Source: Chondrilla cf. caribensis
Taxonomy: Eukaryota; Porifera; Demospongiae; Chondrillida; Chondrillidae
Assembly (NCBI GenBank): GCA_964020155.1
Contig: OZ026566.1
Coordinates: forward strand, 4,230,151 to 4,294,150
Length of the DNA: 64,000 bases
Direction: 5' to 3'
Part shown: positions 9,157-58,959 of the stretch, piece after piece
Numbering within the stretch: the first letter of the stretch is position 1
Layout: every line of letters starts with the position of its first letter
Made by a program: the position numbers and the translations under genes
The notes under the pieces: generated by a model
Told to the model about the DNA's origin: nothing
Databases searched by the model: none
What the model saw: the letters and a program-made list of their open reading frames with translations, nothing else

Positions 9157-9455
9157 TTTCAACCTTGCGCGCGCACTTGACGGCACGGGTCACTAGGGGA
9201 TCCCCCTATAGCTGTACGGTGACGTTTTGAGGGAAAATTATAAATTCCTATGATTAAACCGTACTTGCCGTTGGAACACTCGATTAGACTACACAATGTA
9301 CAGTAGTAGTGTACAGTCGTGCAGAAAGTAGGACGAAAGACCAGTTTTACACAGCGTGCCACTCCACTAGAGTAAGTTCTGATCTATTACAGCTAGATCG
9401 AGTTAGGAAGACTAAAAATTTATAATAGTGCTTCACTTCCGTTCTCGTAGAAGAA
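9157..9455. promoter_or_regulatory. Divergent promoter, KIF6 / beta-helix membrane gene
   Basis: 299 bp separate the KIF6 start codon (9156, minus) from that of the membrane protein gene (9456, plus). A TATA-like ttataaatt lies near 9237 and a CRE-like tgacgtt near 9221. There is no room for another gene. Core elements are inferred, not demonstrated. Confidence 0.6.
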
Positions 9456-12400
9456 ATGGCATTTGCTTCTTGTCGGTGTTTTGTAGCGGGTCTGTTCTGT
9501 TTCACGGTCATGATGAGAGGATACATCGCCGAGGAGTCGTGCGATTCAGCAAGCCACGTCCTCAACGTCACGGATTCCTCAGATAGCGTCGTACTCAACG
9601 ATGTTCTCAAGAATGCTTCTCGTTTAGAAGGAAGCGTTTGCATTCGGCTTGGCCCGGGCAATTTCAGTCTTGCTCCAGACGAACCGACTTATTTGTCCAC
9701 AGGGCTTGTGTCATACGCGCTTAATCTCGCTTTCGACGACGTTATCATTCAAGGAGCAGGACAGGAGCACACGACAATCAAGTGTGTACATGAAGCAGGA
9801 TTAGGGTTCTCCGGCAGTCGCATCAGCATCAGCGGTCTCTTTGTCTGCAATTGCGGAGGGCTGCAGGACAGCACCAGTCTGAATAGCAGTAATTCTACAG
9901 TTTCTTTTCGCAGTGGGCTACACTTTCATGCGGTTCATTCCCTCAGTGTGAGAAACGTGTCTGTTTACTCCAGTCCGGGTGTAGGAATGACCCTCTACAA
10001 TGTGGACGAGGATGTTATAATTGATGGTTGCAGTTTTCGGTACAACCAGGTCCCGGGGGAGGAGATAGATAAATTCCCTGGAGGCGGTGGGCTTTATATC
10101 GAGTTCAGTTACTGTGATCCAGGAGTCGTTGATCCACAATGCCAACAGCCGTACAACTACAACTCCTTCAGCAGGTACAACATTAACAACTGTACCTTTG
10201 CTGAGAACAATGCCACAACCCTCACAACTATCAACAACACCTTCCACACACCTAGAAGTATCTACCATCAAGCCTTTGCCAGAGGTGGAGGACTATCCAT
10301 ATTCTTCAAAGGAAGTGCAACTGGAAATAGTTTTTTCATCAGTGATTGCACTTTCTCCAACAATGTTGCTTTGTGGGGTGGAGGGTTTTTTGCTGAATTT
10401 CAGGACAATGTCACTTCCAACAGGGTGGTGATGAGTCATAGCAGTCTTTCGGGAAACAAATGCAAGAATATCCCAGGGTTTGAGAATAGTGGTACTGCTG
10501 GTGGAGGAATGAGATTGGGGTTTATTGCAATTGGCTACGATGACGTTTCAAACAATTCGCTTGAATTCTCATACTTGTATGTGAACACCAGTGAAGCCAT
10601 GATTGGAGGGGGAACAGCGTTCTATAGCAGTAGAGAAATTTATCGCACTTCTCCCACTAACAGAATCGTCTTCAACAACTGCGTATGGTTCAACAACATT
10701 GGATTGATTGGAGCCGCAGTGAACATCCATGCCTGGCTGCCTTCCACCGAAGGCATCCTTCCAATAGTAGTGTTCAACTCTGCCCTCTTCCTCTACAACG
10801 ATGCCACTTACTCTGAAACACAGCACTACAGAGGTACCGCAGCTGTATATGTCGACTCCCTACCAGTTCAGTTTAACGGGACAGTGAGTTTCATTTCTAA
10901 TACTGGAGGTGGTTTGGCTGCTGTAGTGACAGGAATTGATGTGCGAGAGTTTGCCAGCATTGCATTCATCAATAATACCGCTATTCGCGGGGGAGGAGTC
11001 CAGCTGTTGGGATATGCGTATCTCAGAATGTGGCCCAACTCTACAATGTACTTTGCAGACAACAAAGCGAGTTTGTACGGAGGAGCAATATATTCCCAGT
11101 ATGTGGGGAACAGTGTAGCCGTGTATTATGTCAACTGTTTCATACGACCTGATGATTACTATCTAGAAAGTGATAAGTGGTCGTTCAACTTTACTTTTGA
11201 GAGAAACTGTGCCAGAATGCGTGGGAATGACATCTACTCCACAACCCTGGTGCCGTGTTTGTGGCCATACGTTGTCACGGGGACCACATATAACAGCAAT
11301 TCTGTGCGGGAGCTCTTCAGGGGCTTCACATACATTCCAGGGAATTGCACAACGTGTTCCACCAGCAACTGTTCCATTGCAACTGGGGAGGCAAAGTTTG
11401 AAACCGACAACAGCCAAACACATACATTCTACTCTGGAGAAAGTGTCCACGTACCAATTAAAACCAAAGACGAGTTGAATTCCCTGATGGAAGCAGTGCT
11501 TCTTAGCAGCATCCCAGAGTCAAATGGGGACAATGTAACATGGCTCACTAATGCCAATGGGACTATTGTTTTGAAGAAAGATGAAGCATTTGCTTCCAAG
11601 AACAGCACTACAACCGTTTCCTTTCAAAATGTTGGAGAACGTATTTTTGAGGTTGATATCACTTTCACTATGGTACGCTGTCCAGACGGTAGGATCTACC
11701 ACAGCGATACCAAGGAGTGTGAGTGTGGAAATGTCCCACTTAAAGATGGGGTCAAATCTCCTTATAAGGGGCTGATTGCCTGCGGGGATCAAAGGCTTCT
11801 GGTTGACCCGGCTTATTGGGTGGGACATACACCAAAGAGTGATGTGTTTGCCATTGGTGAGTGCCCTCTTGGGTTCTGCAATGAGACTTGCACCACTGAT
11901 GCTCTTAGGATCACAGTTGGTGATGGTCAGATAAAGAACGACACTTGTGTTAAAGGACGAACTGGGGTTTTATGTGGAACATGCACAAAGGGACGTGCTC
12001 CTCAAGTGGGAAGTATGACCAATTTATATTGTGTTTTTTGTCCATTTGAAGCTACCCCTAGTGGCCATATGGGGGGAGCCACCTTATACATTGCCTTTGA
12101 AGCTCTTCCACTGATCCTCTTCTTCTGTTATCTGTTCTTGTTCAGTCTCAATATTACATACGGACCTCTCCACTCCTTTGTGTTCTTCAGTCAGGTTGTA
12201 CCAACTCTGTTCCAGTTCAACTTTGATTTAGAGGTTTTGCACTGGCCACCAGCGGGCTTCCTGTATAGCATGTGGCAAATGAACATTCTTTCTATCATCA
12301 AGAGATACATCTGCTTCTTTCCCGGAGCAAGTGGCCTTCAAGTAGTTGCCCTTGAAGGAATCAAACCTGTTGTTGCTCTTGGTTTTATGGTCCTGACCAT

Positions 12401-13322
12401 CTTCTGCATTCGACAGACAGAGTGTTGCTGTGGTCCGTGCAGGAGGTTGTGGGGGAAGATACGCCGATTAGTCAGGAACGTCAGAAGGAAGATTGTTGCT
12501 GATAACGACAAGCCTCTTATCAATGGCTTCATTGCTGTCACAATTGTTTGTTTTGCAAAAATCATTGCAGTATCTATGAATTTGCTGGCAATGCAAGAGG
12601 TGTACACAACACTCAACGACCAACCTGACAGTTACTTAGTCTCCAAAGTAGAGGGTGGTGTCAAGTACTTGGACATGCCGCATCTCCCTTACATGGTTGG
12701 TGCTATTGTAGCCATTTCACTGGCCATGGGACTCCCCCTTCTGCTGTTTTACTTCGCTCTGATGACTTTGCTGGTGAGCAAACAGCACAAGTTGAGAAAG
12801 TGTTTTGTGGGAAAGAAAATACTTACGGTATTTCTGGATGACTTCTACAAAGGGTTTAAACTCCATCTAACCTTTTTTGCTCCTCTATACCTCCTGTATC
12901 GCGTTCTCTTCTGGACAATATCTGCCTTTTGTTATGGAAGATACTCCAGGAGTGCTCTGCTCCAAGTTCTCCTCACTCTAATTCTTGGGATCCACTGCTT
13001 GGTCCAGCCATTCCAGCAAGCTTTGCACAATTGGATAGAAACTTTCAACTTGCTGAACCTCACTCTGATCAACTCACTGGCACTCTTCCGTGTGTTTTGG
13101 CTCCAAACAAGCCAGTCGTCAGTCACAAAGATCCTAATGGTGGTGGACATCATCCGTGTTGGTCTTGCAATGTTGCCTGCCGTCCTTCTTGTTGGTTACA
13201 TCTTGCTGAAGATGGGCAAAGCGTGTTTGGCTAAAATTCGCCGTCCGAATGACAACCATACACTGGATGAAGATGAGTATTTCGTCGGTGTAAGAGAGGA
13301 AATGGACACAGACCAAGGTTGA
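9456..13322 (+). CDS. POMP-like beta-helix protein with C-terminal multi-pass membrane domain
   Basis: A single open frame of 1288 codons with no introns, unlike nearly every neighbour. Residues 1-25 are a likely signal peptide. Residues ~35-620 contain repeated FxxN and GG(G/A) elements such as TFSNNVALWGGGFF, AFINNTAIRGGGVQL and YFADNKASLYGGAIY. These match the parallel beta-helix repeat style of chlamydial polymorphic outer membrane proteins. Many N-x-S/T sequons suggest a glycosylated ectodomain. A cysteine-rich stretch (CVKGRTGVLCGTC near residue 830) precedes eight to nine hydrophobic segments between ~875 and ~1250. A short charged tail follows. Ligand and function are unknown to me: an adhesion or sensing receptor is plausible but inferred. 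The ATG has a good context (gaaATGG). The absence of introns suggests a retrocopy or a rapidly expanding intronless family. Confidence 0.8.
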   Translation: MAFASCRCFVAGLFCFTVMMRGYIAEESCDSASHVLNVTDSSDSVVLNDVLKNASRLEGSVCIRLGPGNFSLAPDEPTYLSTGLVSYALNLAFDDVIIQGAGQEHTTIKCVHEAGLGFSGSRISISGLFVCNCGGLQDSTSLNSSNSTVSFRSGLHFHAVHSLSVRNVSVYSSPGVGMTLYNVDEDVIIDGCSFRYNQVPGEEIDKFPGGGGLYIEFSYCDPGVVDPQCQQPYNYNSFSRYNINNCTFAENNATTLTTINNTFHTPRSIYHQAFARGGGLSIFFKGSATGNSFFISDCTFSNNVALWGGGFFAEFQDNVTSNRVVMSHSSLSGNKCKNIPGFENSGTAGGGMRLGFIAIGYDDVSNNSLEFSYLYVNTSEAMIGGGTAFYSSREIYRTSPTNRIVFNNCVWFNNIGLIGAAVNIHAWLPSTEGILPIVVFNSALFLYNDATYSETQHYRGTAAVYVDSLPVQFNGTVSFISNTGGGLAAVVTGIDVREFASIAFINNTAIRGGGVQLLGYAYLRMWPNSTMYFADNKASLYGGAIYSQYVGNSVAVYYVNCFIRPDDYYLESDKWSFNFTFERNCARMRGNDIYSTTLVPCLWPYVVTGTTYNSNSVRELFRGFTYIPGNCTTCSTSNCSIATGEAKFETDNSQTHTFYSGESVHVPIKTKDELNSLMEAVLLSSIPESNGDNVTWLTNANGTIVLKKDEAFASKNSTTTVSFQNVGERIFEVDITFTMVRCPDGRIYHSDTKECECGNVPLKDGVKSPYKGLIACGDQRLLVDPAYWVGHTPKSDVFAIGECPLGFCNETCTTDALRITVGDGQIKNDTCVKGRTGVLCGTCTKGRAPQVGSMTNLYCVFCPFEATPSGHMGGATLYIAFEALPLILFFCYLFLFSLNITYGPLHSFVFFSQVVPTLFQFNFDLEVLHWPPAGFLYSMWQMNILSIIKRYICFFPGASGLQVVALEGIKPVVALGFMVLTIFCIRQTECCCGPCRRLWGKIRRLVRNVRRKIVADNDKPLINGFIAVTIVCFAKIIAVSMNLLAMQEVYTTLNDQPDSYLVSKVEGGVKYLDMPHLPYMVGAIVAISLAMGLPLLLFYFALMTLLVSKQHKLRKCFVGKKILTVFLDDFYKGFKLHLTFFAPLYLLYRVLFWTISAFCYGRYSRSALLQVLLTLILGIHCLVQPFQQALHNWIETFNLLNLTLINSLALFRVFWLQTSQSSVTKILMVVDIIRVGLAMLPAVLLVGYILLKMGKACLAKIRRPNDNHTLDEDEYFVGVREEMDTDQG

Positions 13323-18255: not shown

Positions 18256-19963
18256 ATGGCTGCAGTCAAGGGAAGCAAGATTCAAAAGAAGGTACATTAG
18301 ACCATACACTCCATAAACCGTCGACCTGATTAGACAAGTACAGCCCCTATCACGTAGAGGTACGATATAGTCTACATTCCTGCTCAGTAACTATCGATTA
18401 ATGAAACAGATAAAAAGTAGTAGTGTGTTGTAGATTTGGTCGTGTTTAAGTTAATATTTATAATTTCTCACACTCGCTATCTTTCACGTTCAGAGAGAGG
18501 AAGACCCCGATGTGTGGTTGTCGAAGTCTCTCAGCTACTTGACAAGACACGGAGCCGAAAAAGAAGGACTGAAAGTAGAAAAAGGTGTGTTCCCGTTCGC
18601 CCCGTACGTCGAACGTTCGTACCATGATATGGAGGAGTGGGGTAACTCGGAATGAATAGGTGACTTGGAACAGGCCTCTTTTCACATACTTGGTGTTGAG
18701 CTATGGACAAATGTTTTCTGATGTAGAATCTCATATCTATGGCGGAAACATCGTTGTGAACATCTATCAAAAGTTCAACATGAAGAGTGCCTGAGACTCG
18801 CCATTCCAAGTCACCCCAGTGTTCCAAGTACCACACTCTACCCCATACCCAGATATTAGTATTCAGAGTGTGCTGTGATCTGATACCACTGGGTCATCCC
18901 ACAGGGGGCTACATAGCTGTCGATGCCATACTGGCTCTGCCCGGGTTCAAGAAGAAAGGACTGACCAGGAACGATGTTGAGAGAGTCGTCGTGAACAATA
19001 GCAAGCAGCGATTCAGCCTTAAGACAGATGAGAATGAGCAGGTCTTCATCCGTGCCAACCAGGGTCACACCATGGAGGTGGAGGACCTGGAGCTGTCGGA
19101 GATACTGCATCCGGAGGAAGCACCTGTGGTCGTTCACGGAACCTACCTCAGGTGTCTGGAATCCATCAAGAAAGACGTGTGTGCGGTATTGTAGTTGGCT
19201 GCATTGTGTTTTTGCTATCATGGGTTTTCTTTACAGTTATATTGACCTGTGTCCTTACATTCTGTCCCTGTGTTCTGTGTCTATATTGTCTCCTTGTACC
19301 ATGTCATTGTAGCAGGCGTCATTGCTGACAACTTTCCCTTGAAGCAAACTTGTTCAGACACTTTTGTAGTTCTTTTAAAATATCCACTCGTCATTGTGTA
19401 GGGTCTGTGCAGGATGAAGAGGAACCATATCCACTTTGCACCAGGTGTTCCTGGAGATTGTGAAGTCATTAGTGGTCAGTGTATGGTGTGTTTCTGTCAC
19501 TGCTTCAATCTGTTTCTATCACAGGCATGCTGTGTTTCGATCTCAGATGTTCAGTGTTTTTTCATCACAGGCATGCTGTGTTTCGATCTCAGATGATTTT
19601 TGTTTCTATGCACATGTGTATGTACACATGTATGTCAATAGAAGCTTTTAAGGTGTCTTCCATTTTGCCTTCTTCAGGAATGAGAACAACCTGCCAGGTG
19701 CTAATATTTGTTGACCTCAAGACAGCTCTCAATGGTTAGGAGTGTGGTAAGGGGTACTTTATGCTGTATATTGACTTGTAACTGTGCTCACCGTTTGGAT
19801 GTAGATGGCTATAAGTTTTACCGCTCAGCCAATAATGTTATTTTATGTCCCGGAAATGAAGATGGCTATCTTCCGTCGGTATATTTTGCCAAGATAGAAG
19901 AAATTAAGTGTGAGTATGTGTGTGTGGTGTGCATGGAAACGTGTGTGTGTGTGTGTGTGTGTG

Positions 19964-20558: not shown

Positions 20559-20609
20559 AGAGCATGTATGTATGAATTATATGAAACTAAATATACATAC
20601 TTGTATGCA

Positions 20610-20984
20610 TACATTTGTATGTATAGTCCTTATGATGCTAGGTATAGACCTTGTAGTGACAAAAACTCAAATTTTTTTATTGTTAATCACGACCTCTCTA
20701 TTCTCTATGTTATGCATCATAGGATGTGTGTATGATATCTACCAGGAGTGTATCCATCCACGCATGAGTGTAATATGCCTTGTGGTGATAACTCAGGTGA
20801 TTCAACATCCCATTGCTGGTCACCAAGGGCTGCCTGGTGTCTGTGCCAAACTCACCAACACAATTTGGGATGCATATAAACCGTCCTGAGTGTGCTATGG
20901 GCCTCGTGTTGACAAGTATGAAAATGTCAATTTTTATGCTTGTCACCACGGCCTCTCCTGTGTGCACATAATGTATAATCATGT
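20610..20984. repeat. Satellite family C, left flank
   Basis: About three diverged monomers of ~125-130 bp sharing gtgctatgggcctcgtgttg-like and gtcaccacggcctct-like strings. The same family recurs at 33062-33400 on the far side of the satellite array. An open frame of 105 codons across it is not supported as a gene. Confidence 0.65.
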
Positions 20985-23900
20985 CTCCTTAAAATATCAT
21001 GTTGACACGCCCCTTCTCCCATGAGCTACGCAAAAAGGTGCTTAACGTTTTTTGATACTATACCTTCCCATACATTAAAAAATATTAAGCACCTCCGGAT
21101 GTAGTTAGGGTTTGGGACCACCTACAGAGATGAAAGTTGTTTCATACGTTAGTATAGGTCCACAGCTAGGTCTCCATAATATATCATGTTGACACGCCCC
21201 TTCTCCCATGAGCTATGCAAAAAGGTGCTTAACGTTTTTTGATCCTATACCTTCCCATACATTAAAGAAATATTAAGCACCTCCGGATGTAGTTAGAGTT
21301 TGGGACCACCTACGGAGATAAAAATTGTTTCATGAGGTAGTATAGGTCCACAGTTAGGTCTCCATAAAATATCATGTTGACACGCCCCTTCTCCCATGAG
21401 CTATGCAAAAACGTGCTTAACGTTTTTTTGATCCTATACCTTCCCATACATACATTAAAATATATTAAGCACCTCCGGATGTAGTTAGAGTTTGGGACCA
21501 CCTACGGAGATGAAAATTGTTTCATCAGTTAGTATAGGTCCACAGCTAGGTCTCCATAATATATCATGTTGACACGCCCCTTCTCCCATGAGCTATGCAA
21601 AAAGGTGCTTAACGTTTTTTGATCCTATACCTTCCCATACATTAAATAATATTAAGCACCTCCGGATGTAGTTAGGGTTTGGGACCACCTACGGAGATAA
21701 AAATTGTTTCATGAGGTAGTATAGGTCCACAGTTAGGTCTCCATAAAATATCATGTTGACACGCCCCTTCTCCCATGAGCTATGCAAAAAGGTGCTTAAC
21801 GTTTTCTGATACTATACCTTCCCATACATTAAAGAAATATTAAGCACCTCCGGATGTAGTTAGAGTTTGGGACCACCTACGGAGATAAAAATTGTTTCAT
21901 GAGGTAGTATAGGTCCACAGTTAGGTCTCCATAAAATATCATGTTGACACGCCCCTTCTCCCATGAGCTATGCAAAAACGTGCTTAACGTTTTTTTGATC
22001 CTATACCTTCCCATACATTAAAAAAATATTAAGCACCTCCGGATGTAGTTAGAGTTTGGGACCATCTACGGAGATAAAAATTGTTTCATGAGGTAGTATA
22101 GGTCCACAGTTAGGTCTCCATAATATATCATGTTGACACGCCCCTTCTCCCATGAGCTATGCAAAAAGGTGCTTAACGTTTTTTGATCCTATACCTTCCC
22201 ATAAATTAAAAAATATTAAGCACCTCCGGATGTAGTTAGAGTTTGGGACCACCTACGGAGATGAAAATTGTTTCATAAGTTAGTATAGGTCCACAGCTAG
22301 GTCTCCATAATATATCATGTTGACACGCCCCTTCTCCCATGAGCTATGCAGAAAGGTGCTTAACGTTTTTTGATCCTATACCTTCCCATACATTAAATAA
22401 TATTAAGCACCTCCGGATGTAGTTAGGGTTTGGGACCACCTACGGAGATAAAAATTGTTTCATGAGGTAGTATAGGTCCACAGCTAGGTCTCCATAAAAT
22501 ATCATGTTGACACGCCCCTTCTCCCATGAGCTATGCAAAAAGGTGCTTAACGTTTTTTTGATCCTATACCTTCCCATACATTAAAAAAATATTGAGCACC
22601 TCCGGATGTAGTTAGGGTTTGGGACCATCTACGGAGATAAAAATTGTTTCATGAGGTAGTATAGGTCCACAGTTAGGTCTCCATAATATATCATGTTGAC
22701 ACGCCCCTTCTCCCATGAGCTACGCAAAAAGGTGCTTAGCGTTTTTGATCCTATACCTTCCCATACATACATTAAAATATATTAAGCACCTCCGGATGTA
22801 TTTAGAGTTTGGGACCACCTACGGAGATGAAAGTTGCTTCATGAGGTAGTATAGGTCCACAGTTAGGTCTCCATAAAATATCGTGTTGACATGCCCCTTC
22901 TCCCATGAGCTATGCAAAAAGGTGCTTAACGTTTTTGATCCTATACGTACCTTCCCATACGTACATTAAAAAAATATTAAGCACCTCCAGATGTAGTTAG
23001 AGTTTGGGACCACCTACGGAGATAAAAATTGTTTCATGAGGTAGTATAGGTCCACAGTTAGGTCTCCATAAAATATCATGTTGACACGCCCCTTCTCCCA
23101 TGAGCTATGCAAAAAGGTGCTTAACGTTTTTTGATCCTATACCTTCGCATAAATTAAAAAATATTAAGCACCTCCGGATGTAGTTAGAGTTTGGGACCAC
23201 CTACGGAGATAAAAATTGTTTCATAAGTTAGTATAGGTCCACAGCTAGGTCTCCAAAATATATCATGTTGACACGCCCCTTCTCCCATGAGCTATGCAAA
23301 AAGGTGCTTAACGTTTTTTGATCCTATACCTTCCCATACATTAAAAAATATTAAGCACCTCCGAATGTAGTTAGAGTTTGGGACCACCTACGGAGATGAA
23401 AATTGTTTCATGAGGTAGTATAGGTCCACAGCTAGGTCTCCATAATATATCATGTTGACACGCCCCTTCTCCCATGAGCTACGCAAAAAGGTGCTTAGCG
23501 TTTTTGATCCTATACCTTCCCATACATACATTAAAATATATTAAGCACCTCCGGATGTATTTAGAGTTTGGGACCACCTAAGGAGATGAAAATTGTTTCA
23601 TAAGTTAGTATAGGTCCACAGCTAGGTCTCCATAAAATATCATGTTGACACGCCCCTTCTCCCATGAGTTATGCAAAAAGGTGCTTAACGTTTTTTGATC
23701 CTATACCTTCCCATACATTAAAAAATATTAAGCACCTCCGGATGTAGTTAGGGTTAGGGACCACCTATGGCGATGAAAAGTGTTTCATGAGGTAGTATAG
23801 GTCCACAGCTAGGTATCCATAAAATATCATGTTGACACGCCCCTTTTCCCATGAGCTACGCAAAAAGGTGCTTAGCGTTTTTGATCCTATACCTTCCCAT

Positions 23901-24288
23901 ACATACATTAAAATATATTAAGCACCTCCGGATGTAGTTAGAGTTTGGGACCACCTACGGAGATGAAAGTTGCTTCATGAGGTAGTATAGGTCCACAGTT
24001 AGGTCTCCATAAAATATCATGTTGACATGCCCCTTCTCCCATGAGCTATGCAAAAAGGTGCTTAACGTTTTTGATCCTATACGTACCTTCCCATACGTAC
24101 ATTAAAAAAATATTAAGCACCTCCGGATGTAGTTAGAGTTTGGGACCACCTACGGAGATAAAAATTGTTTCATGAGGTAGTATAGGTCCACAGTTAGGTC
24201 TCCATAAAATATCATGTTGACACGCCCCTTCTCCCATGAGCTATGCAAAAAGGTGCTTAACGTTTTTTGATCCTATACCTTCCCATAC
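20985..24288 (+). repeat. Satellite A, left block (~187-bp monomer, ~18 copies)
   Basis: Head-to-tail monomers of ~187 bp with conserved segments gacacgccccttctcccatg, ggtgcttaacgtttttt and aagcacctccggatgtag. Each monomer holds a 9-bp inverted repeat GGTGCTTAA/TTAAGCACC about 40 bp apart. Sub-variants recur in the same order about 1.14 kb apart (22.69 kb and 23.83 kb), pointing to a higher-order period near six monomers. Occasional 61-63-codon frames on the minus strand are by-products. Confidence 0.95.
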
Positions 24289-27200
24289 GTACGTAGCACC
24301 ACAGTCAATGTATGGGGGAGGATAGGGAAAAAATACACTTAGCACCATCCTGCATATCTTGTGGGACATGGGGCGTGTCACCCTGATATTTTCAACAAAT
24401 CTAGTTGGAGATGTGAACTAAGTTATGAAACACTTCCCATCACTTTGTGTGCTCTGTAACCCTTGTTATTCAAAGTGGTGCTATGGCCAAATTTTGGCCA
24501 TAGCACCACAGTCAATGTATGGGGGAGAATAGGGAAAATACACTTAGCACCATCTTGCATATCTCGTGGGGGAAGGGGCATGTCACCCTGATATTTTCAA
24601 CAAATCTAGTTGGAGATGTGAACTAAGTTATGAAACACTTCCCATCACTTTGTGTACTCTGTAACCCTTGTTATTCAAAGTGGTGCTATGGCCAAATTTT
24701 GGCCATAGCACCACAGTCAATGTATGGGGGAGAATAGGGAAAAAATACACTTAGCACCATCCTGCATAGCTCGTGGGAGAGGGGGCGTGTCACCCTGATA
24801 TTTTCAACAAATCTAGTTGGAGATGTGAACTAAGTTATGAAACACTTCCCATCACTTTGTGTACTCTGTAACCCTTGTTATTCAAAGTGGTGCTATGGCC
24901 AAATTTTGGCCATAGCACCACAGTCAATGTATGGGGGAGAATAGGGAAAAAATACACTTAGCACCATCCTGCATATCTCGTGGGAGAGGGGGCGTGTCAC
25001 CCTGATATTTTCAACAAATCTAGTTGGAGATGTGAACTAAGTTATGAAACACTTCCCATCACTTTGTGTGCTCTGTAACCCTTGTTATTCAAAGTGGTGC
25101 TATGGCCAAATTTTGGCCATAGCACCACAGTCAATGTATGGGGGAGAATAGGGAAAATACACTTAGCACCATCTTGCATAGCTCGTGGGAGAGGGGGCGT
25201 GTCACCCTGATATTTTCAACAAATCTAGTTGGAGATGTGAACTAAGTTATGAAACACTTCCCATCACTTTGTGTACTCTGTAACCCTTGTTATTCAAAGT
25301 GGTGCTATGGCCAAATTTTGGCCATAGCACCACAGTCAATGTATGGGGGAGAATAGGGAAAAAATACACTTAGCACCATCCTGCATAGCTCGTGGGAGAG
25401 GGGGCGTGTCACCCTGATATTTTCAACAAATCTAGTTGGAGATGTGAACTAAGTTATGAAACACTTCCCATCACTTTGTGTACTCTGTAACCCTTGTTAT
25501 TCAAAGTGGTGCTATGGCCAAAATTTGGCCATAGCACCATCCTGCATAGCTCGTGGGAGAGGGGGCGTGTCACCCTGATATTTTCAACAAATCTAGTTGG
25601 AGATGTGAACTAAGTTATGAAACACTTCCCATCACTTTGTGTACTCTGTAACCCTTGTTATTCAAAGTGGTGCTATGGCCAAATTTTGGCCATAGCACCA
25701 TAATGCATAGCTCGTGGGAGAGGGGGCGTGTCACCCTAATATTTTCAACAAATCTAGTTGGAGATGTGAACTAAGTTATGAAACACTTCCCATCACTTTG
25801 TGTGCTCTGTAACCCTTGTTATTCAAAGTGGTGCTATGGCCAAATTTTGGCCATAGCACCACAGTCAATGTATGGGGGAGAATAGGGAAAAAATACACTT
25901 AGCACCATCCTGCATATCTCGTGGGAGAGGGGGCGTGTCACCCTGATATTTTCAACAAATCTAGTTGGAGATGTGAACTAAGTTATAAAACACTTCCCAT
26001 CACTTTGTGTACTCTGTAACCCTTGTTATTCAAAGTGGTGCTATGGCCAAATTTTGGCCATAGCACCACAGTCAATGTATGGGGGAGAATAGGGAAAAAA
26101 TACACTTAGCACCATCCTGCATATCTCGTGGGAGAGGGGGCGTGTTACCCTGATATTTTCAACAAATCTAGTTGGAGATGTGAACTAAGTTATGAAACAC
26201 TTCCCATCACTTTGTGTACTCTGTAACCCTTGTTATTCAAAGTGGTGCTATGGCCAAATTTTGGCCATAGCACCATCCTGCATATCTCGTGGGAGAGGGG
26301 GCGTGTCGCCCTGATATTTTCAACAAATCTAGTTGGAGATGTGAACTAAGTTATGAAACACTTCCCATCACTTTGTGTGCTCTGTAACCCTTGTTATTCA
26401 AAGTGGTGCTATGGCCAAATTTTGGCCATAGCACCACAGTCAATGTATGGGGGAGAATAGGGAAAAAATACACTTAGCACCATCCTGCATATCTCGTGGG
26501 AGAGGGGGCGTGTTACCCTGATATTTTCAACAAATCTAGTTGGAGATGTGAACTAAGTTATGAAACACTTCCCATCACTTTGTGTACTCTGTAACCCTTG
26601 TTATTCAAAGTGGTGCTATGGCCAAATTTTGGCCATAGCACCATCCTGCATAGCTCGTGGGAGAGGGGGCGTGTCACCCTGATATTTTCAACAAATCTAG
26701 TTGGAGATGTGAACTAAGTTATGAAACACTTCCCATCACTTTGTGTACTCTGTAACCCTTGTTATTCAAAGTGGTGCTATGGCCAAATTTTGGCCATAGC
26801 ACCATCCTGCATATCTCGTGGGAGAGGGGGCGTGTCGCCCTGATATTTTCAACAAATCTAGTTGGAGATGTGAACTAAGTTATGAAACACTTCCCATCAC
26901 TTTGTGTACTCTGTAACCCTTGTTATTCAAAGTGGTGCTATGGCCAAATTTTGGCCATAGCACCATCCTGCATATCTCGTGGGAGAGGGGGCGTGTCGCC
27001 CTGATATTTTCAACAAATCTAGTTGGAGATGTGAACTAAGTTATGAAACACTTCCCATCACTTTGTGTGCTCTGTAACCCTTGTTATTCAAAGTGGTGCT
27101 ATGGCCAAATTTTGGCCATAGCACCACAGTCAATGTATGGGGGAGAATAGGGAAAAAATACACTTAGCACCATCCTGCATATCTCGTGGGAGATGGGGTG

Positions 27201-30200
27201 TGTCACCCTGATATTTTCAACAAATCTAGTTGGAGATGTGAACTAAGTTATGAAACACTTCCCATCACTTTGTGTGCTCTGTAACCCTTGTTATTCAAAG
27301 TGGTGCTATGGCCAAATTTTGGCCATAGCACCACAGTCAATGTATGGGGGAGAATAGGGAAAAAATACACTTAGCACCATCCTGCATATCTCGTGGGAGA
27401 GGGGGCGTGTCACCCTGATATTTTCAACAAATCTAGTTGGAGATGAGAACTAAGTTATGAAACACTTCCCATCACTTTGTGTGCTCTGTAACCCTTGTTA
27501 TTCAAAGTGGTGCTATGGCCAAATTTTGGCCATAGCACCACAGTCAATGTATGGGGGAGAATAGGGAAAAAATACACTTAGCACCATCCTGCATATCTCG
27601 TGGGAGAGGGGGCGTGTCACCCTGATATTTTCAACAAATCTAGTTGGAGATGAGAACTAAGTTATGAAACACTTCCCATCACTTTGTGTGCTCTGTAACC
27701 CTTGTTATTCAAAGTGGTGCTATGGCCAAATTTTGGCCATAGCACCACAGTCAATGTATGGGGGAGAATAGGGAAAAAATACACTTAGCACCATCCTGCA
27801 TATCTCGTGGGAGAGGGGGCGTGTCACCCTGATATTTTCAACAAATCTAGTTGGAGATGTGAACTAAGTTATGAAACACTTCCCATCACTTTGTGTGCTC
27901 TGTAACCCTTGTTATTCAAAGTGGTGCTATGGCCAAATTTTGGCCATAGCACCACAGTCAATGTATGGGGGAGAATAGGGAAAAAATACACTTAGCACCA
28001 TCCTGCATAGCTCGTGGGAGAGGGGGCGTGTCGCCCTGATATTTTCAACAAATCTAGTTGGAGATGTGAACTAAGTTATGAAACACTTCCCATCACTTTG
28101 TGTACTCTGTAACCCTTGTTATTCAAAGTGGTGCTATGGCCAAATTTTGGCCATAGCACCATCCTGCATATCTCGTGGGAGAGGGGGCGTGTCACCCTGA
28201 TATTTTCAACAAATCTAGTTGGAGATGTGAACTAAGTTATGAAACACTTCCCATCACTTTGTGTGCTCTGTAACCCTTGTTATTCAAAGTGGTGCTATGG
28301 CCAAATTTTGGCCATAGCACCACAGTCAATGTATGGGGGAGAATAGGGAAAAAATACACTTAGCACCATCCTGCATAGCTCGTGGGAGAGGGGGCGTGTC
28401 ACCCTGATATTTTCAACAAATCTAGTTGGAGATGTGAACTAAGTTATGAAACACTTCCCATCACTTTGTGTACTCTGTAACCCTTGTTATTCAAAGTGGT
28501 GCTATGGCCAAATTTTGGCCATAGCACCACAGTCAATGTATGGGGGAGAATAGGGAAAAAATACACTTAGCACCATCCTGCATATCTCGTGGGAGAGGGG
28601 GCGTGTTACCCTGATATTTTCAACAAATCTAGTTGGAGATGTGAACTAAGTTATGAAACACTTCCCATCACTTTGTGTACTCTGTAACCCTTGTTATTCA
28701 AAGTGGTGCTATGGCCAAATTTTGGCCATAGCACCATCCTGCATAGCTTGTGGGAGAGGGGGCGTGTCACCCTGATATTTTCAACAAATCTAGTTGGAGA
28801 TGTGAACTAAGTTATGAAACACTTCCCATCACTTTGTGTACTCTGTAACCCTTGTTATTCAAAGTGGTGCTATGGCCAAATTTTGGCCATAGCACCATCC
28901 TGCATATCTCGTGGGAGAGGGGGCGTGTCGCCCTAATATTTTCAACAAATCTAGTTGGAGATGTGAACTAAGTTATGAAACACTTCCCATCACTTTGTGT
29001 ACTCTGTAACCCTTGTTATTCAAAGTGGTGCTATGGCCAAATTTTGGCCATAGCACCACAGTCAATGTATGGGGGAGAATAGGGAAAAAATACACTTAGC
29101 ACCATCCTGCATATCTCGTGGGAGAGGGGGCGTGTCACCCTGATATTTTCAACAAATCTAGTTGGAGATGTGAACTAAGTTATGAAACACTTCCCATCAC
29201 TTTGTGTGCTCTGTAACCCTTGTTATTCAAAGTGGTGCTATGGCCAAATTTTGGCCATAGCACCACAGTCAATGTATGGGGGAGAATAGGGAAAAAATAC
29301 ACTTAGCACCATCCTGCATAGCTCGTGGGAGAGGGGGCGTGTCGCCCTGATATTTTCAACAAATCTAGTTGGAGATGTGAACTAAGTTATGAAACACTTC
29401 CCATCACTTTGTGTACTCTGTAACCCTTGTTATTCAAAGTGGTGCTATGGCCAAATTTTGGCCATAGCACCATCCTGCATATCTCGTGGGAGAGGGGGCG
29501 TGTCACCCTGATATTTTCAACAAATCTAGTTGGAGATGTGAACTAAGTTATGAAACACTTCCCATCACTTTGTGTGCTCTGTAACCCTTGTTATTCAAAG
29601 TGGTGCTATGGCCAAATTTTGGCCATAGCACCACAGTCAATGTATGGGGGAGAATAGGGAAAAAATACACTTAGCACCATCCTGCATAGCTCGTGGGAGA
29701 GGGGGCGTGTCACCCTGATATTTTCAACAAATCTAGTTGGAGATGTGAACTAAGTTATGAAACACTTCCCATCACTTTGTGTACTCTGTAACCCTTGTTA
29801 TTCAAAGTGGTGCTATGGCCAAAATTTGGCCATAGCACCATCCTGCATATCTCGTGGGAGAGGGGGCGTGTCACCCTGATATTTTCAACAAATCTAGTTG
29901 GAGATGTGAACTAAGTTATGAAACACTTCCCATCACTTTGTGTACTCTGTAACCCTTGTTATTCAAAGTGGTGCTATGGCCAAATTTTGGCCATAGCACC
30001 ACAGTCAATGTATGGGGGAGAATAGGGAAAAAATACACTTAGCACCATCCTGCATATCTCGTGGGAGAGGGGGCGTGTTACCCTGATATTTTCAACAAAT
30101 CTAGTTGGAGATGTGAACTAAGTTATGAAACACTTCCCATCACTTTGTGTACTCTGTAACCCTTGTTATTCAAAGTGGTGCTATGGCCAAATTTTGGCCA

Positions 30201-30990
30201 TAGCACCATCCTGCATAGCTTGTGGGAGAGGGGGCGTGTCACCCTGATATTTTCAACAAATCTAGTTGGAGATGTGAACTAAGTTATGAAACACTTCCCA
30301 TCACTTTGTGTACTCTGTAACCCTTGTTATTCAAAGTGGTGCTATGGCCAAATTTTGGCCATAGCACCATCCTGCATATCTCGTGGGAGAGGGGGCGTGT
30401 CGCCCTAATATTTTCAACAAATCTAGTTGGAGATGTGAACTAAGTTATGAAACACTTCCCATCACTTTGTGTACTCTGTAACCCTTGTTATTCAAAGTGG
30501 TGCTATGGCCAAATTTTGGCCATAGCACCACAGTCAATGTATGGGGGAGAATAGGGAAAAAATACACTTAGCACCATCCTGCATATCTCGTTGGAGAGGG
30601 GGCGTGTTACCCTGATATTTTCAACAAATCTAGTTGGAGATGTGAACTAAGTTATGAAACACTTCCCATCACTTTGTGTACTCTGTAACCCTTGTTATTC
30701 AAAGTGGTGCTATGGTCAAATTTTGGCCATAGCACCATCCTGCATAGCTCGTGGGAGAGGGGGCGTGTCGCCCTGATATTTTCAACAAATCTAGTTGGAG
30801 ATGTGAACTAAGTTATGAAACACTTCCCATCACTTTGTGTACTCTGTAACCCTTGTTATTCAAAGTGGTGCTATGGCCAAATTTTGGCCATAGCACCATC
30901 CTGCATAGCTCGTGGGAGAGGGGGCGTGTCACCCTGATATTTTCAACAAATCTAGTTGGAGGTTATGAAACACTTCCCATCACTTTGTGT
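24289..30990 (-). repeat. Satellite B, central block (207/160-bp monomers, ~36 copies)
   Basis: Nearly identical monomers in two lengths: about 21 long (~207 bp) and 15 short (~160 bp). Short copies lack 47 bp lying between two direct AGCACCA strings. Each monomer contains the inverted repeat ggtgctatggcc/ggccatagcacc around a 7-nt AT loop. Read on the minus strand, B aligns with satellite A (gacacgcccc, ctctcccacgaga, atgcaggatggtgcttag-like, cccatacatt), so it is a relative in inverted orientation. Private variants (tcgccctaat, tagcttgtggg, gtgttaccctg) recur in order 1.3-1.5 kb apart between 27.95 and 30.5 kb. Confidence 0.95.
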
Positions 30991-31014
30991 ACTGACACAA
31001 AGTGATGGGAAGTG
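30971..31014. repeat. Perfect 20-bp fold-back at the B/A junction
   Basis: cacttcccatcactttgtgt is followed by actg and then its exact reverse complement. The first arm is ordinary B sequence. The second arm runs straight into satellite A in the opposite orientation. Confidence 0.95.
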
Positions 31015-33061
31015 ACACGCCTCTTCTCCCATGAGCTATGCAAGAAGTTGCTTAACGTTTTTTGATCCTATACCTTCCCATACATTAAAAAATATTAAGC
31101 ACCTCCGGATGTAGTTAGAGTTTGGGACCACCTACGGAGATGAAAATTGTTTCATGAGGTAGTATAGGTCCACAGCTAGGTCTCCATAAAATATCATGTT
31201 GACACGCCCCTTCTCCCATGAGCTACGCAAAAAGGTGCTTAACCATTTTCGATCCTATACTTTCGCATACATTATAAAATATTAAGCACCTCCGGATGTA
31301 GTTAGAGTTTGGGACCACCTAAGGAGATGAAAATTGTTTCATGAGGTAGTATAGGTCCACAGTTAGGTCTCCATGAAATATCATGTTGACACGCCCCTTC
31401 TCCCATGAGCTATGCAAAAAGGTGCTTAACGTTTTTGATCCTATACGTACCTTCCCATACGTACATTAAAAAAATATTAAGCACCTCCGGATGTAGTTAG
31501 AGTTTGGGACCACCTACGGAGATAAAAATTGTTTCATGAGGTAGTATAGGTCCACAGTTAGGTCTCCATAAAATATCATGTTGACATGCCCCTTCTCCCA
31601 TGAGCTATGCAAAAAGGTGCTTAACGTTTTTGATCCTATACGTACCTTCCCATACGTACATTAAAAAAATATTAAGCACCTCCGGATGTAGTTAGAGTTT
31701 GGGACCACCTACGGAGATAAAAATTATTTCATGAGGTAGTATAGGTCCACAGTTAGGTCTCCATAAAATATCATGTTGACACGCCCCTTCTCCCATGAGC
31801 TACGCAGAAAGGTGCTTAACGTTTTTTGATCCTATACCTTCCCATACATTAAATAATATTAAGCACCTCCGGATGTAGTTAGAGTTTGGGACCATCTATG
31901 GAGATAAAAATTGTTTCATGAGGTAGTATAGGTCCACAGTTAGGTCTCCATAAAATATCATGTTGACACGCCCCTTCTCCCATGAGCTACGCAAAAAGGT
32001 GCTTAACGTTTTTGATCCTATACCTTCCCATACATTAAAAAATATTAAGCACCTCCGGATGTAGTTAGGGTTTGGGACCACCTACGGAGATGAAAGTTGC
32101 TTCATGAGGTAGTATAGGTCCACAGTTAGGTCTCCATAATATATCATGTTGACACGCCCCTTCTCCCATGAGCTACGCAAAAAGGTGCTTAACGTTTTTG
32201 ATCCTATACCTTCCCATACATTAAAAAATATTAAGCACCTCCGGATGTAGTTAGAGTTTTGGACCACCTACGGAGATGAAAATTGTTTCATAAGTTAGTA
32301 TAGGTCCACAGCTAGGTCTCCATAAAATATCATGTTGACACGCCCCTTCTCCCATGAGCTACGCAAAAAGGTGCTTAACTTTTTTCGATCCTATACTTTC
32401 ACATACATTATAAAATATTAAGCACCTCCGAATGTAGTTAGAGTTTGGGACCACCTAAGGAGATGAAAGTTGCTTCATGAGGTAGTATAGGTCCACAGCT
32501 AGGTCTCCATAAAATATCATGTTGACACGCCCCTTCTCCCATGAGCTATGCAAAAAGGTGCTTAACGTTTTTTTGATCCTATACCTTCCCATACATTAAA
32601 AAAATATTAAGCACCTCCGGATGTAGTTAGAGTTTGGGACCATCTACGGAGATGAAAATTGTTTCATAAGTTAGTATAGGTCCGCAGCTAGATCTCCATA
32701 AAATATCATGTTGATACGCCCCTTCTCCCATGAGCTACGCAAAAAGGTGCTTAACGTTTTTTGATCCTATACCTTCCCATACATTATAAAATATTAAGCA
32801 CCTCCGAATGTAGTTAGGGTTTGGGACCACCTACGAAGATGAAAGTTGTTTCATAAAGGAGTATAGGTCCACAGCTAGGTCTCCATAAAATATCATGTTG
32901 ACACACCCCTTCTCCCATGAGCTACGCAAAAAGGTGCTTAACGTTTTTTGATCCTATACCTTCCCATACATTAAAGAACATTAGGCACCTCCGGATGTAG
33001 TCAGGGTTTGGGACCACCTATGGAGATGAAAATTGTTTCATAAGTTAGTATAGGTCCACAG
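31012..33061 (+). repeat. Satellite A, right block (~11 copies)
   Basis: The same ~187-bp monomer and orientation as the left block. It shares rare variants with it, for example the ctatacgtaccttcccatac form at 31440 and 31640 also seen at 22940 and 24080. This indicates the two A blocks were once one array. Confidence 0.95.
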
Positions 33062-33420
33062 CCATTCTGTATGTGCTATGGACCTCATGGTGACCAGTAA
33101 AAAATGTCATATTTCATTGTTGGTCACCACGGCCTCTTCAGTGTCCTCATGATGCATAATAGCATCAATGCTGATGTATGCATACCCTCCTGGAGGTGTT
33201 ATGAACCTGGTAGTGACCATAGTATGCATTTTCTTGCAGGTCACAAATCCTGCCTAGTGTCCACATGATACACTATAATAATACACACACTTTTGCATGA
33301 ACATGGACCTCTTGGTGACCACCCAGGTGATTTCACATTCTGTTGATGGTCACCATGGGCTGAAGTTGCTGAACAGTGTCATGCTCTAGATCTGTATGTA
33401 CCTCATGGCCATATGTTGTA
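33062..33420. repeat. Satellite family C, right flank
   Basis: Diverged monomers resembling 20610-20984 (gtgctatggacctcatggtg, ggtcaccacggcctct), about 120-130 bp each. Together with the left copy they bracket the whole A-B-A array. Confidence 0.6.
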
Positions 33421-33550
33421 ATGTAGTTATATTACCACTATGTATGTATAACATTATCATAACAGTGGTATTAATCATTGAAATCTACATTAATTTCTAT
33501 AAAGTTGGATTAGAGAAAAAAGAATTCTTACTGTAATGATTAAAATAAAA

Positions 33551-33881
33551 TTATTTCATAGTGGCAGATCGACTTGTTGGTAGAATCTTCTCTAATAAGT
33601 AAGCTTCCTTTGACTTCAATGAAGATGATGGAGATGGCGAAACTCTTCGAGGACCCAGAGACCCAGTACTAAGGGTCTTCTTCCCTGGAAGGGACAAGTG
33701 GAGCTCTTCTCTCTGTTTGGGATCAGGGGACATCCAGTCAGGAAGCTGCTTATGCTCCTGAAAACTCTCTGGTGTAACAGCTCGCTCCAAAACAGCTTTC
33801 TCTTGAGAGCCGAATACAGATCCTGAAGAGGATGAACCACAGCACACACACGCACACTATGCAACATACCTGGTGTGGATA

Positions 33882-33943
<62 letters not shown>

Positions 33944-35113
33944 CCCATCCACTCCACACAGTTTGGTGGAACAGGCAGTTTGTGAAATTTGAAAGTCTTC
34001 ATTTTGAGCACATCATTGTATTTCAGGAAATCATCTTCTAAACAAGCCATTAATTCTTCTTTCATCCTGGACCTACGTATACGGATTGAAATACAGCCAC
34101 ATCACACCATAGTTAAAGCACACCACACCATAGTACAAGCACACCACACTGTAGTACAAGCACACCACACCATAGTTTAAGCACACCACACCGTAGTACA
34201 AGCACATCACACCAGAACATCACACTGTGGTAGAAGTACATCATGCCACTACAGACAGGAAGGCATGCGAACTTACATGAACCCCGATGTGGAAACAACA
34301 CCACCAACCACTGCTATGTTCTCTGCCAACTCCTTACGACAATCTATGGAGCACTACAAGCAGGGAGACCAGTACATGGTGAACATGTGAGAGCACAGAC
34401 ATGTTATAGGTTCCAAGCACACACCTTCTTCAGGGAGTCCAGAATGAGGATCGCTACAGACAAACTAGTTTCAGATCCGAAGAACACATCCCCTGAAAAT
34501 GCCCTGTAAGACAGTAGGATGTATGGAGAACCACATCTTCACAACGCACACAACACGGTGAGCTGATCAGTGACACTAGACAATGTTCTCAGTTACAGTT
34601 CTACGCAGGGACTGCTGCTTTCGGCACACCTTGTCTTGCCGTCCACTGTGAGGACCAGGTCTCCCCCACTGAGAGGGTAGGCCATGTTTGGGGGAGTGTC
34701 TTCTCTGCCTCGAGGCCTCACAAAGCAAGTCCGAACTGGAAGGACAGAGGAGAGGAAAGATACAGTCACACCACCATCAACAACAACATGATAACAACAA
34801 TAACAACAATAACAACAATAATAACAATAGCAGTTACTACAAGTGTGGAGTTAGTTACCTGCTATATTCTCAAGATCACTTTTCAAATCATCCTCTGTGT
34901 GACAGAAATGAGAGTGAAGGTTGAATGACACAAACACCAATGATCCTCACAAGACAGGGTCATTGCAACTTACCAGTGACCGGCCTCCTCTCCTGCGGCT
35001 CCTGGCTACCACAAGACACAACGGAACCATTTTTCCCGAGACTCTCAGCTACAGCACTACAGGTGTGGTATGCACAGAAGACATCCATATTAAATCACCT
35101 ACACAGTATTAGC

Positions 35114-37265: not shown

Positions 37266-38436
37266 TCTCATTCTTTCAATATTGACAGTTTTCAATATTT
37301 TATGTTCTTGATATCCATAGATTTGGTCATTAGAACATCCAGAGTGGACTTGCAAGATTGATGAAGGTTCTGCCGGTCTTGTGGCGTGCTACTGGTCCCC
37401 TGACAGTCGACATGTCCTCACCATGTCCGATTTCCAACTCCGCATCACTCTCTGGTCTCTGGTGAGCAAGTCAGTGGCTTACATCAAGCATCCAAAGTTG
37501 TCCCAGAAAGGAATTGACTTCAGCAAGGATGGGAAATTTATGGCACTTGCCGAGCGAAGAGATTGCAAAGATTTCATCAGTATATTTGACTGTAGTTCGT
37601 GGCAGCTGTGCAAGCACTTTCCCGTTGATACGAATGATCTTGCCGGTGTGATGTGGTCCCCGGATGGGAGAGTTCTCTGCGTCTGGGACTCCATACTTGA
37701 ATACAAGGTCATGATATACTCGCTTGACGGCCGCTCCCTTGCCTCATACTCTGCATACGAGCAGGCACTTGGTGTGAAGTGCGTTTCGTGGTCGCCCACC
37801 AGTCAATTTCTGGTTATTGGCAGTTTTGACCAGAAGCTTCGTGTTCTCAATCATATTACATGGAAGGCAGTGGCCGAATGGAGCCACCCAGCCTCTGTGG
37901 ACCACGCAAACGTTGTTGTCTTCTGTGAAGTAGAGACAAAGATGCCGGCAATAGCCTATCCCGACAGGTTCCTACGTACACTGAGTACCAACGTGCCTCT
38001 TCCTCAGAGCAAATATGAAACAAAGGAAGTTCCTGTTCAGATTGCTTCTCTCAAACCAGATCCAGAAAAACCGAATCCGAAAATGGGAGTCGGAACTGCT
38101 ATTTTCAGTCCAGACAGCAAGTACCTGGTGACCATCAACGATAACATGCCCAGTGCTGTGTGGATATGGGACATACAGAAACTGAAGCTCTCGGTCTTGC
38201 TAGTCCAGACAGCCAGTGTGAAGTGTGCCACGTGGGACCCCTTGCAGTCACAGCTAGCGGTTTGTACCGGGAACAACAAACTCTACCTCTGGTCTCCTGC
38301 TGGCTGTGTGAGTGTAGCAGTGCCCACCGAGAGCTCTTTCAACGTGACAGGCCTGCTGTGGCACCCTGATGGCACCTCTCTCATATTGATGAGTAAAACT
38401 AACTTCTGTGTCTGTTATCTGTCAGGCAGTTCTTGA
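36801..38436 (+). CDS. WRAP73: WD repeat protein WRAP73 (WDR8)
   Basis: Centrosomal and ciliary WD40 protein, known as a partner of SSX2IP/Msd1 in spindle anchoring and cilium assembly. Two exons, 36801-37022 and 37321-38436 (445 residues; human ~460). Starts [20 protein letters not shown], as in the family. WD-type blades are visible: [71 protein letters not shown] and [12 protein letters not shown]. The family-specific [15 protein letters not shown] is present. Intron 1 is 298 bp and contains a GA microsatellite. Tail-to-tail with atlastin, 336 bp between stop codons. Confidence 0.95.
37191..37262. repeat. GA microsatellite, WRAP73 intron 1
   Basis: About 70 bp of GA on the sense strand with one AGG interruption. 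Confidence 0.95.

Positions 38437-50284: not shown

Positions 50285-58959
<8,675 letters not shown>

Follow-up and report, generated by a model that had tools for sequence, protein, structure and literature searches.

Putative transposon excision scars at joins between nested, inverted satellite blocks in the sponge Chondrilla cf. caribensis

It is an old question how satellites move from one chromosome to another, become inverted and come to lie within one another. In maize, the transposase of Ac, a hAT element, has been shown experimentally to act on the ends of two elements and so produce inversions and duplications, with footprints marking excision; the sponge system described here may work in a comparable way, but we infer it from sequence, and it involves a Tc1/mariner-like element and satellite arrays. 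Tc1/mariner elements such as Sleeping Beauty and ISY100 are characterized by TA target duplication, terminal inverted repeats, a DDE_3 transposase and footprints of 2–3 nt between two TAs (PMC2170065, PMC7827188), and ISY100 is reported to cut 2 nt inside its 5′ ends, its emptied backbone being religated as TATATA (PMC2170065). The sponge element shares the TA duplication, the inverted repeats, the DDE_3 transposase and, at its target spots, inserts of 2–3 nt between TAs. Unlike Sleeping Beauty and ISY100, it has CGG ends that would give a self-complementary CG overhang, seven of its nine close copies sit at two places of one satellite monomer, and it carries an extra open reading frame (ORF) with a weak BEN match.

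A comparable case among satellites is that of Meloidogyne, in which sharp switches between diverged satellites fall at fixed short motifs (CENP-B-box-like junction boxes); cut-and-paste shuffling by a transposition-like mechanism has been proposed, as has a transposase role in satellite movement by analogy with CENP-B and pogo (PMC3694981). In the part of that account considered here, the monomers have the motif in common and no source element is named, whereas in the sponge the motif appears to have been added as a footprint, and the element itself sits at the target sites. Oyster Helitron/Helentron arrays are likewise short satellite arrays scattered over chromosomes and linked to a mobile element, but there the array is described as part of the element (PMC8268682), whereas here the satellite is the target. 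None of the papers listed in a search for sponge satellites was relevant, and among the reports searched, mostly as titles and the beginnings of abstracts, we found none of transposon footprints at satellite block joins.

Results

We analysed a 64,000-nucleotide stretch of contig OZ026566.1 (the window), which contains three satellite families, A, B and C. The A monomer has two hot places, spot 1 (CCTATA^, two neighbouring TAs) and spot 2 (CCCATA^CATT). The features of the array and its surroundings are as follows.

18784–19194: Tpt1/KptA exon (Pfam PF01885), about 1.8 kb left of the array
20764–20979, plus strand: C satellite fragment (about 359-bp family), left flank, from blastn and Viterbi segmentation
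20983–24287, plus strand: left A array, 187-bp monomers, subfamily A1
22942–22967, plus strand: A monomer in which the hot TAs of spot 1 and spot 2 each carry a footprint-like CGTA insertion
24078–24103, plus strand: another left A monomer, likewise doubly inserted
24286–24295, no strand: A–B join, with the double scar TA-CG-TA-CG-TA flanked by CCCATA of A (spot 2) on one side and TAGCACC of B on the other
24294–30993, minus strand: B array, reversed relative to A; monomers of 207/205/161 bp that include a 35-bp palindrome
30971–31014, no strand: B–A join, a fold-back with 20-bp inverted arms and a 4-nt loop, after which A restarts at TGACACGCC
31013–33062, plus strand: right A array
31442–31467, plus strand: right A monomer with double insertion
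31637–31662, plus strand: second right A monomer with double insertion
33063–33194, plus strand: C satellite fragment, right flank, from segmentation
37321–38436: WD40 ORF, right of the array

These coordinates bear out the A-B-A arrangement described in the initial annotation, as well as its statement that genes lie close by; an ORF at 33616–34101 had no Pfam match. In a self dot plot (k=12), inner B bins and A bins had no forward words in common, and bins straddling the A/B joins mixed both families. Both switch joins of the window recur in the same form on contig C3, which makes an assembly artefact unlikely. On contig C1, the A–B join is one CGTA unit shorter.

The initial annotation had also proposed that B, read in reverse, descends from the same ancestor as A. 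The reverse-complement B consensus is indeed related to A, with a local alignment score of 170 over the whole unit, compared with a mean of 22.2 (SD 4.4, maximum 52) for 1,000 dinucleotide shuffles, which rules out chance homology; A and B on the same strand scored only 22. The claimed order of shared blocks holds, and their spacing is also kept. These results support common ancestry of A and reverse B. Within the B array, 35 occurrences of GGCCATAGCACCA delimit 20 units of 205/207 bp and 14 of 161 bp, and the consensus units show that the shorter form lacks the segment enclosed by two TAGCACCA repeats. When gaps are ignored, units are on average 95.1% identical in A and 98.6% identical in long B. 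That a single A population was split by B is supported by the rare doubly inserted A variant, which occurs twice on each side, and by unit identities (gaps counted) that are alike within the left array (0.936), within the right array (0.925) and between them (0.930). The reverse orientation of B is not fixed: the A–B joins at loci C17 and C21b run in the homologous direction, and those at C11b, C14a, C14b and C22 run in both directions.

The window is one of many nested composites with the order C, A, B, A, C. Among the matches listed, at least one of the three families was present on each of 25 large contigs. The C family is found at many loci; counting exact B palindromes only, there are at least five separate sites on C1 and three on C2. 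We read 85 loci by hand from the best-scoring rows of the ranked A, B and C match lists, in which the families overlap, and 72% of them lie within the outer 40% of each half-chromosome. The suggestion that such inverted blocks mark centromeric or heterochromatic regions is not supported, since there are several loci per contig and most are distal; a centromeric satellite with one principal array per chromosome is likewise at odds with the several B loci on each of C1, C2 and C3. We also considered that B might be carried, with fixed ends, by a Helitron or a MITE and rejected this, because B blocks terminate at several different TAs.

We consider the main finding to be the scars at the block joins, which the initial annotation did not see. 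Using block labels from blastn and Viterbi segmentation, we found TACGTA no more than 12 bp from 18 of 50 family joins and, once four look-alike contexts were removed, from 14 of 46 distinct joins in 11 regions (ten regions were chosen from the best-scoring B matches); as scarred monomers can be amplified, these counts are not counts of events. The corresponding figure for internal positions is 0.37–0.39%, and TACGTA is the most enriched hexamer at family joins (p 2e-23). In 5,000 permutations the mean was 0.14 and the maximum 3, against the 14 observed. The remaining 32 distinct joins are scar-free, including both at C15 and both at C17, and the scar marks 18 of 115 joins when those to unlabelled DNA are included. 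The B–A join of the window has no TACGTA scar and lies outside the 46, because a short unlabelled stretch sits within it. Three further B edges were read. Those at C4 and C10 had been picked owing to a nearby scar seen previously, and that at C16 without such a sign; at C16 the scar lies exactly at the A–B join, and at C10 the A–B edge is scar-free, the scar lying instead at an A−/A+ join. Away from joins, visual comparison with the consensus showed 26 of 30 internal TACGTA motifs to be 4-bp insertions at one of the hot places of A (spot 1 or spot 2) or at either palindrome TA of B; the other four lie elsewhere. TACGTA is also over-represented in non-satellite DNA (46 versus 12 expected), as are TACATA, TATGTA and TATATA.

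On account of the TACGTA scars, we looked for a TA-targeting element with CG ends, and then found one: a 4-kb Tc1/mariner-like transposon, TA-CGGTACGG...CCGTACCG-TA, with ends 5′-CGG. Its inverted ends match perfectly over 26 bp and are 72% similar over about 130 bp. All four full copies (97–100% alike) have TA on both sides; two lie in A monomers, one at spot 1 and one at spot 2, and joining their flanks gives clean empty sites. An intact 332-aa ORF encodes the predicted transposase, with a DDE_3 match of 82.3 bits (cut-off 28.6; the 42 places examined were the higher ranked of 71) and, by visual count, D-34-E spacing; the helix-turn-helix match is weak, HTH_Tnp_Tc3_2 scoring 24.5 bits, below its cut-off of 31.5. 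The TA duplication, terminal inverted repeats and DDE transposase place the element in the Tc1/mariner superfamily. Four short copies, 401 bp long by their end positions, all lie in A at spot 1 or spot 2, one of them beside an old TACGTA; they have TA on both sides, and their left ends are 99% like the 4-kb element. They may be MITEs, presumably non-coding given their size. Seven of the nine close copies, closeness meaning ends at least 94% identical, are inside A at these two spots, and A makes up about 1.4% of the genome (a product calculated by hand); of the more distant copies with a flank read, only 2 of 11 are in A. The window contains no copy, only AT-rich matches to the transposon interior. 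Element ends bounding the sponge arrays were not seen except at C11, where a 602-bp stretch with element-like ends (the right by blastn, E 1e-5; the left by eye) sits exactly between an A+ and an A− block.

The insertions at the hot TAs resemble what such an element would leave behind. In 100 listed rows of 735 matches, spot 2 carried 45 two-nucleotide insertions (33 CG, 8 TG and 4 CA) and seven of three nucleotides (CCG 2, CGG 1, CTG 2, CAG 1 and GAA 1). This series, mainly CG, CA/TG and CNG, has the make-up of a footprint spectrum of Tc1/mariner excision, and the CG, CGG and CCG inserts between TAs match the ends of the transposon that occupies the same spots, suggesting excision.

At C1 and C11a, the B block has scars on both sides, and its flanks, when joined, restore an intact A monomer (171/180 and 168/177, respectively). 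When the joins were shifted as a control, all 30 tries at each locus gave a lower score, but 20 and 14 of them, respectively, still yielded an alignment spanning the join. The scars on both sides and the clean empty site at these loci could be read as a composite transposon: a B stretch flanked by two transposon copies would move into an A monomer, and each flanking element would then excise alone, leaving TA-CG-TA on either side. No B block still flanked by both elements was seen in the 11 regions, and we put this reading forward only tentatively.

Discussion

We think it likely that breaks left by transposon excision within satellite arrays, sealed to the wrong partners, built many of the blocks. 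A, B and C are nested families repeated over distal chromosome arms, and spots 1 and 2 of the A monomer are preferred targets of a Tc1/mariner-like family with 5′-CGG ends. Excision would leave breaks with short overhangs, most commonly CG; because CG is self-complementary, any two broken ends could be sealed, in either orientation, as TA-CG-TA. Sealing of the right partners would leave a 4-bp scar within a monomer, and sealing to a wrong one, whether in a different array, on the opposite strand or on a freed fragment, would produce an abrupt block switch, often with a change of orientation. In the window, the A–B join is probably such an excision scar and the B–A join a separate fold-back event, the whole composite having been copied afterwards (window, C3 and partly C1).

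Free sealing of compatible ends should produce both left–left and right–right symmetric joins, and both had been expected genome-wide. The left–left form, TCCCATACGTATGGGA, was found at 0 of 12 pattern sites genome-wide, and the right–right form, CAATGTACGTACATTG, is uncommon, at 3 of the 50 sites listed (86 sites in all). These two outcomes count against the model, as do the 32 scar-free family joins, the fold-back at the B–A join of the window, the excess of TACGTA outside satellites, the scar-free A–B edge at C10 and the small share of more distant element copies in A.

It is also conceivable, though we consider it unlikely, that the transposon made the 4-bp insertions and not the breaks. 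Palindromic TACGTA is the same on both strands and could, as microhomology, let template switching or illegitimate recombination between TACGTA-bearing monomers form inverted joins. Such monomers are present in both A and B, the joins resemble crossovers between TACGTA variants, and the fold-back join of the window indicates that template switching probably occurs; yet, with other short palindromes and far longer homologies available, it is this motif, present at 0.4% of positions, that lies at 30% of distinct family joins. The scar is likewise seen at 5 of 24 same-orientation joins and at some joins to unlabelled sequence, none of which calls for an inverted partner. Ordinary layered evolution, in which B arose inside A, C is an older shell and unequal exchange and segmental copying did the rest, with the scars incidental, strikes us as very improbable: it accommodates the nesting, the higher identity within B than within A, the joins common to the window and C3 and the in-register switch from A to B at C17, but it predicts neither the enrichment of scars at joins nor the two-sided scarred insertions of B into single A monomers. 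Least probable is slippage at ATAC-rich spots, with TACGTA as a (CGTA)n microsatellite seed, joins falling in unstable spots and no transposon, for which the (CGTA)4 tracts bounding the C11a B block on either side and the other hexamers over-represented outside satellites might speak, but slippage at ATACAT should favour CA, whereas CG is eight times commoner (33 versus 4), six of the seven three-nucleotide inserts are CNG (both in the 100 listed rows of 735), and an element with CG ends occupies exactly these TAs.

Under the excision-break model, the sequence displays each step of the proposed chain (an element, its landing site in the monomer, its footprints, and identical footprints where blocks meet), which makes the transposase idea testable. 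If satellite blocks do travel as the cargo of composite transposons, satellite and transposon would act as partners, the monomer offering a preferred landing site and the transposase supplying the breaks that invert, nest and disperse the arrays.

Satellite families and composite arrays

The assembly comprises 137 Mb in 37 contigs, of which 25 large ones total 136.6 Mb, and the window lies on contig C21 (4,230,151-4,294,150). The A-B-A array described in the initial annotation was present at the position claimed. Aligned over the whole unit, the 187-bp A monomer and the minus-strand B monomer (207, 205 or 161 bp) scored 170 against a maximum of 52 in 1000 shuffles, in agreement with the common ancestor proposed there; on the same strand, A and B scored 22. 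The A repeats to the left and right of B formed a single population, as had also been suggested. About 10,400 A monomers were found at three or fewer mismatches (control 108), which by rough hand arithmetic is 1.9 Mb, or 1.4% of the genome. B monomers (window 24294-30993) contain a 35-bp near-perfect palindrome, GTGGTGCTATGGCC...GGCCATAGCACCAC, and across the genome the 31-bp core of this palindrome matches about 2130 sites with two or fewer mismatches (control 0); the palindrome may itself derive from an insertion between two TAs that later collapsed.

Using A, B and flank sequence as queries, we identified a flank family of about 359 bp, family C, and at least one of the three families was on each of the 25 large contigs among the matches listed. 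From the best-scoring B matches we retrieved ten further B loci of 20 kb each, making 11 regions with the window, and took five consensus units of A. The main B block was flanked by A on both sides in nine of the 11 regions (the exceptions being the B loci C21b and C22), family C lay further out or in between in all 11, and family switches were sharp. A and B had opposite orientations in the window and at C1, C3, C11a and C15, the same orientation at C17 and C21b, and both at C11b, C14a, C14b and C22. Both window joins were found in the same form on contig C3 and one was common to C1, which shows copying of composites between chromosomes as well. A hint that such arrays mark centromeres was unsupported: on C1 B occupies five or more places and on C2 three or more, the listed satellite loci are distal, and the distribution looks unlike that of a single centromere on each chromosome. 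TTAGGG arrays were found near the end of C1, the one contig represented among the matches listed.

Elsewhere in the window, the best named relatives of a glucosylceramidase ORF came from the sponges Ephydatia, Amphimedon and Corticium. An uninterrupted reading frame at 9429-13322 (1297 amino acids), whose product by eye appears secreted, had no match in a Pfam search, and a perfect TC dinucleotide run spans 327 bp (51799-52125).

A recurrent hexamer at block joins

When joins were compared side by side, TACGTA (TA-CG-TA), which we take as a transposon excision footprint and call the scar, was recurrent. At 18 of 50 family joins it was no more than 12 bp away, compared with 0.39% of 27,573 internal positions. 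With look-alike contexts removed, it was present at 14 of 46 family joins and was the most enriched hexamer of all (p = 1.9e-23); over 5000 permutations its count averaged 0.14 and never exceeded 3. Among inverted joins 9 of 22 carried it, and among joins in the same direction 5 of 24. Once joins to unlabelled DNA were included, the count was 18 of 115. Inside blocks, away from joins, TACGTA occurred 30 times; judged by eye against the consensus, 26 were 4-bp insertions at CCTATA^ (spot 1) or CCCATA^CATT (spot 2) of the A monomer or at the pair of TAs in the palindrome of B; the remaining four were at other positions. In non-satellite DNA (the window outside 20600-33500 plus long unlabelled flanks of the retrieved regions), TACGTA was observed 46 times with 12 expected under a first-order model. 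There TACATA, TATGTA, TATATA and TACGTA were all two- to fourfold above that expectation, and may represent microsatellite seeds or transposon footprints of greater age.

Genome-wide, the insertion pattern at spot 2 had 735 matches (control 9), and the uninserted site, TCCCATACATTG, occurred 5975 times. Among the 100 of these 735 matches that were listed, on C1 to C4, two-nucleotide inserts were CG (33), TG (8) and CA (4), with no others, and three-nucleotide inserts were CCG (2), CGG (1), CTG (2), CAG (1) and GAA (1). Seven inserts had four nucleotides and nine had other lengths; those of eight (29) and ten (3) are read as natural monomer variants. ISY100 cuts two nucleotides inside its 5' ends and the emptied backbone is religated as TATATA (PMC2170065), and Sleeping Beauty leaves three-nucleotide overhangs with footprints to match (PMC7827188); TA-NN-TA and TA-CNG-TA are the products of such Tc1/mariner excision. 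This spectrum predicts a TA-targeting element with CG or CGG ends, and the CA/TG and CAG/CTG inserts predict relatives with CAG ends.

A Tc1/mariner-like element in A monomers

A DDE_3 profile search returned 71 places, including one family with ends TA-CGGTACGGATCACAAAAAAG. The full element is 4.0-4.1 kb long, with 26-bp perfect inverted ends and TA on both sides; it encodes an intact 332-aa transposase and, on the opposite strand, a 444-aa ORF with a weak BEN match below the cut-off. Two copies interrupt A monomers, one at each of the two spots, and joining the element flanks gave intact A monomers.

C18:4640823-4644963, Tc1/mariner-like element, 4141 bp
C18:4652477-4656617, Tc1/mariner-like element, 4141 bp

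These copies are nearly identical and lie 11.7 kb apart, and the DNA between them contains A-type repeats. The 444-aa ORF of the first contains tandem peptide repeats.

A one-end scan gave 63 matches, and 40 of 42 candidates were scored. The left end was at least 94% identical at nine places, seven of them in A monomers and all of these at spot 1 or spot 2: the two full copies, four of 401 bp, and C2:1888529, which was placed in A from one flank. Full copies outside A were on C8 and at 3173 kb on C2. More distant element ends lay in A in 2 of the 11 with a flank read. An older TACGTA adjoins, or shares a monomer with, three insertions, one of which is a distant relative. The median relative distance from the nearer chromosome end was 0.28 for the listed satellite loci, in distal arms. 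For DDE_3 transposases, taken as the 42 best-ranked of the 71 places, it was 0.79, most of them lying towards the middle of a chromosome.

Scars and element remnants at individual joins

On C11, a 602-bp stretch lies exactly between A+ and A- blocks. Its right end is element-end-like (blastn E 1e-5, with about 93 bp alignable). For its left end, CAGTGCAGATCACAG, the likeness was judged solely by eye, and no strong alignment was obtained with the first 120 bp of the stretch. We take it for a putative diverged relative. The B blocks of C1 and C11a carry the scar at both ends, and joining the A sequences that flank them restores an intact monomer (171/180 and 168/177 identical, respectively); at each locus all 30 shifted control joins had lower scores, many of them still spanning the join. 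We examined three further B edges, C16 chosen without prior sign of a scar and C4 and C10 for a nearby one. The scar was exactly at A|B on C16; on C4 it marked an inversion some 15 bp away from B, and on C10 it was at an A-|A+ join and absent from A|B.

Excision would, we infer from these sequences, be a cause of joins. Against this, most joins have no scar, and across the genome scar joins of symmetric form are rare or absent. The right join of the window is a fold-back, with 20-bp arms around four nucleotides and then A, and looks like template switching. On sequence comparison, the best account of the window array is that of a satellite composite, with one of its two joins probably supplied by a transposon excision break.

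Transposase-like shuffling of satellites has already been proposed for nematodes, and a mollusc study states that the nature of the mechanism remained unknown (PMC5139131). A candidate source element, unnamed in the relevant part of the nematode work (PMC3694981), is in place in this sponge, whose sequence shows the element together with its target, its footprint and the joins.
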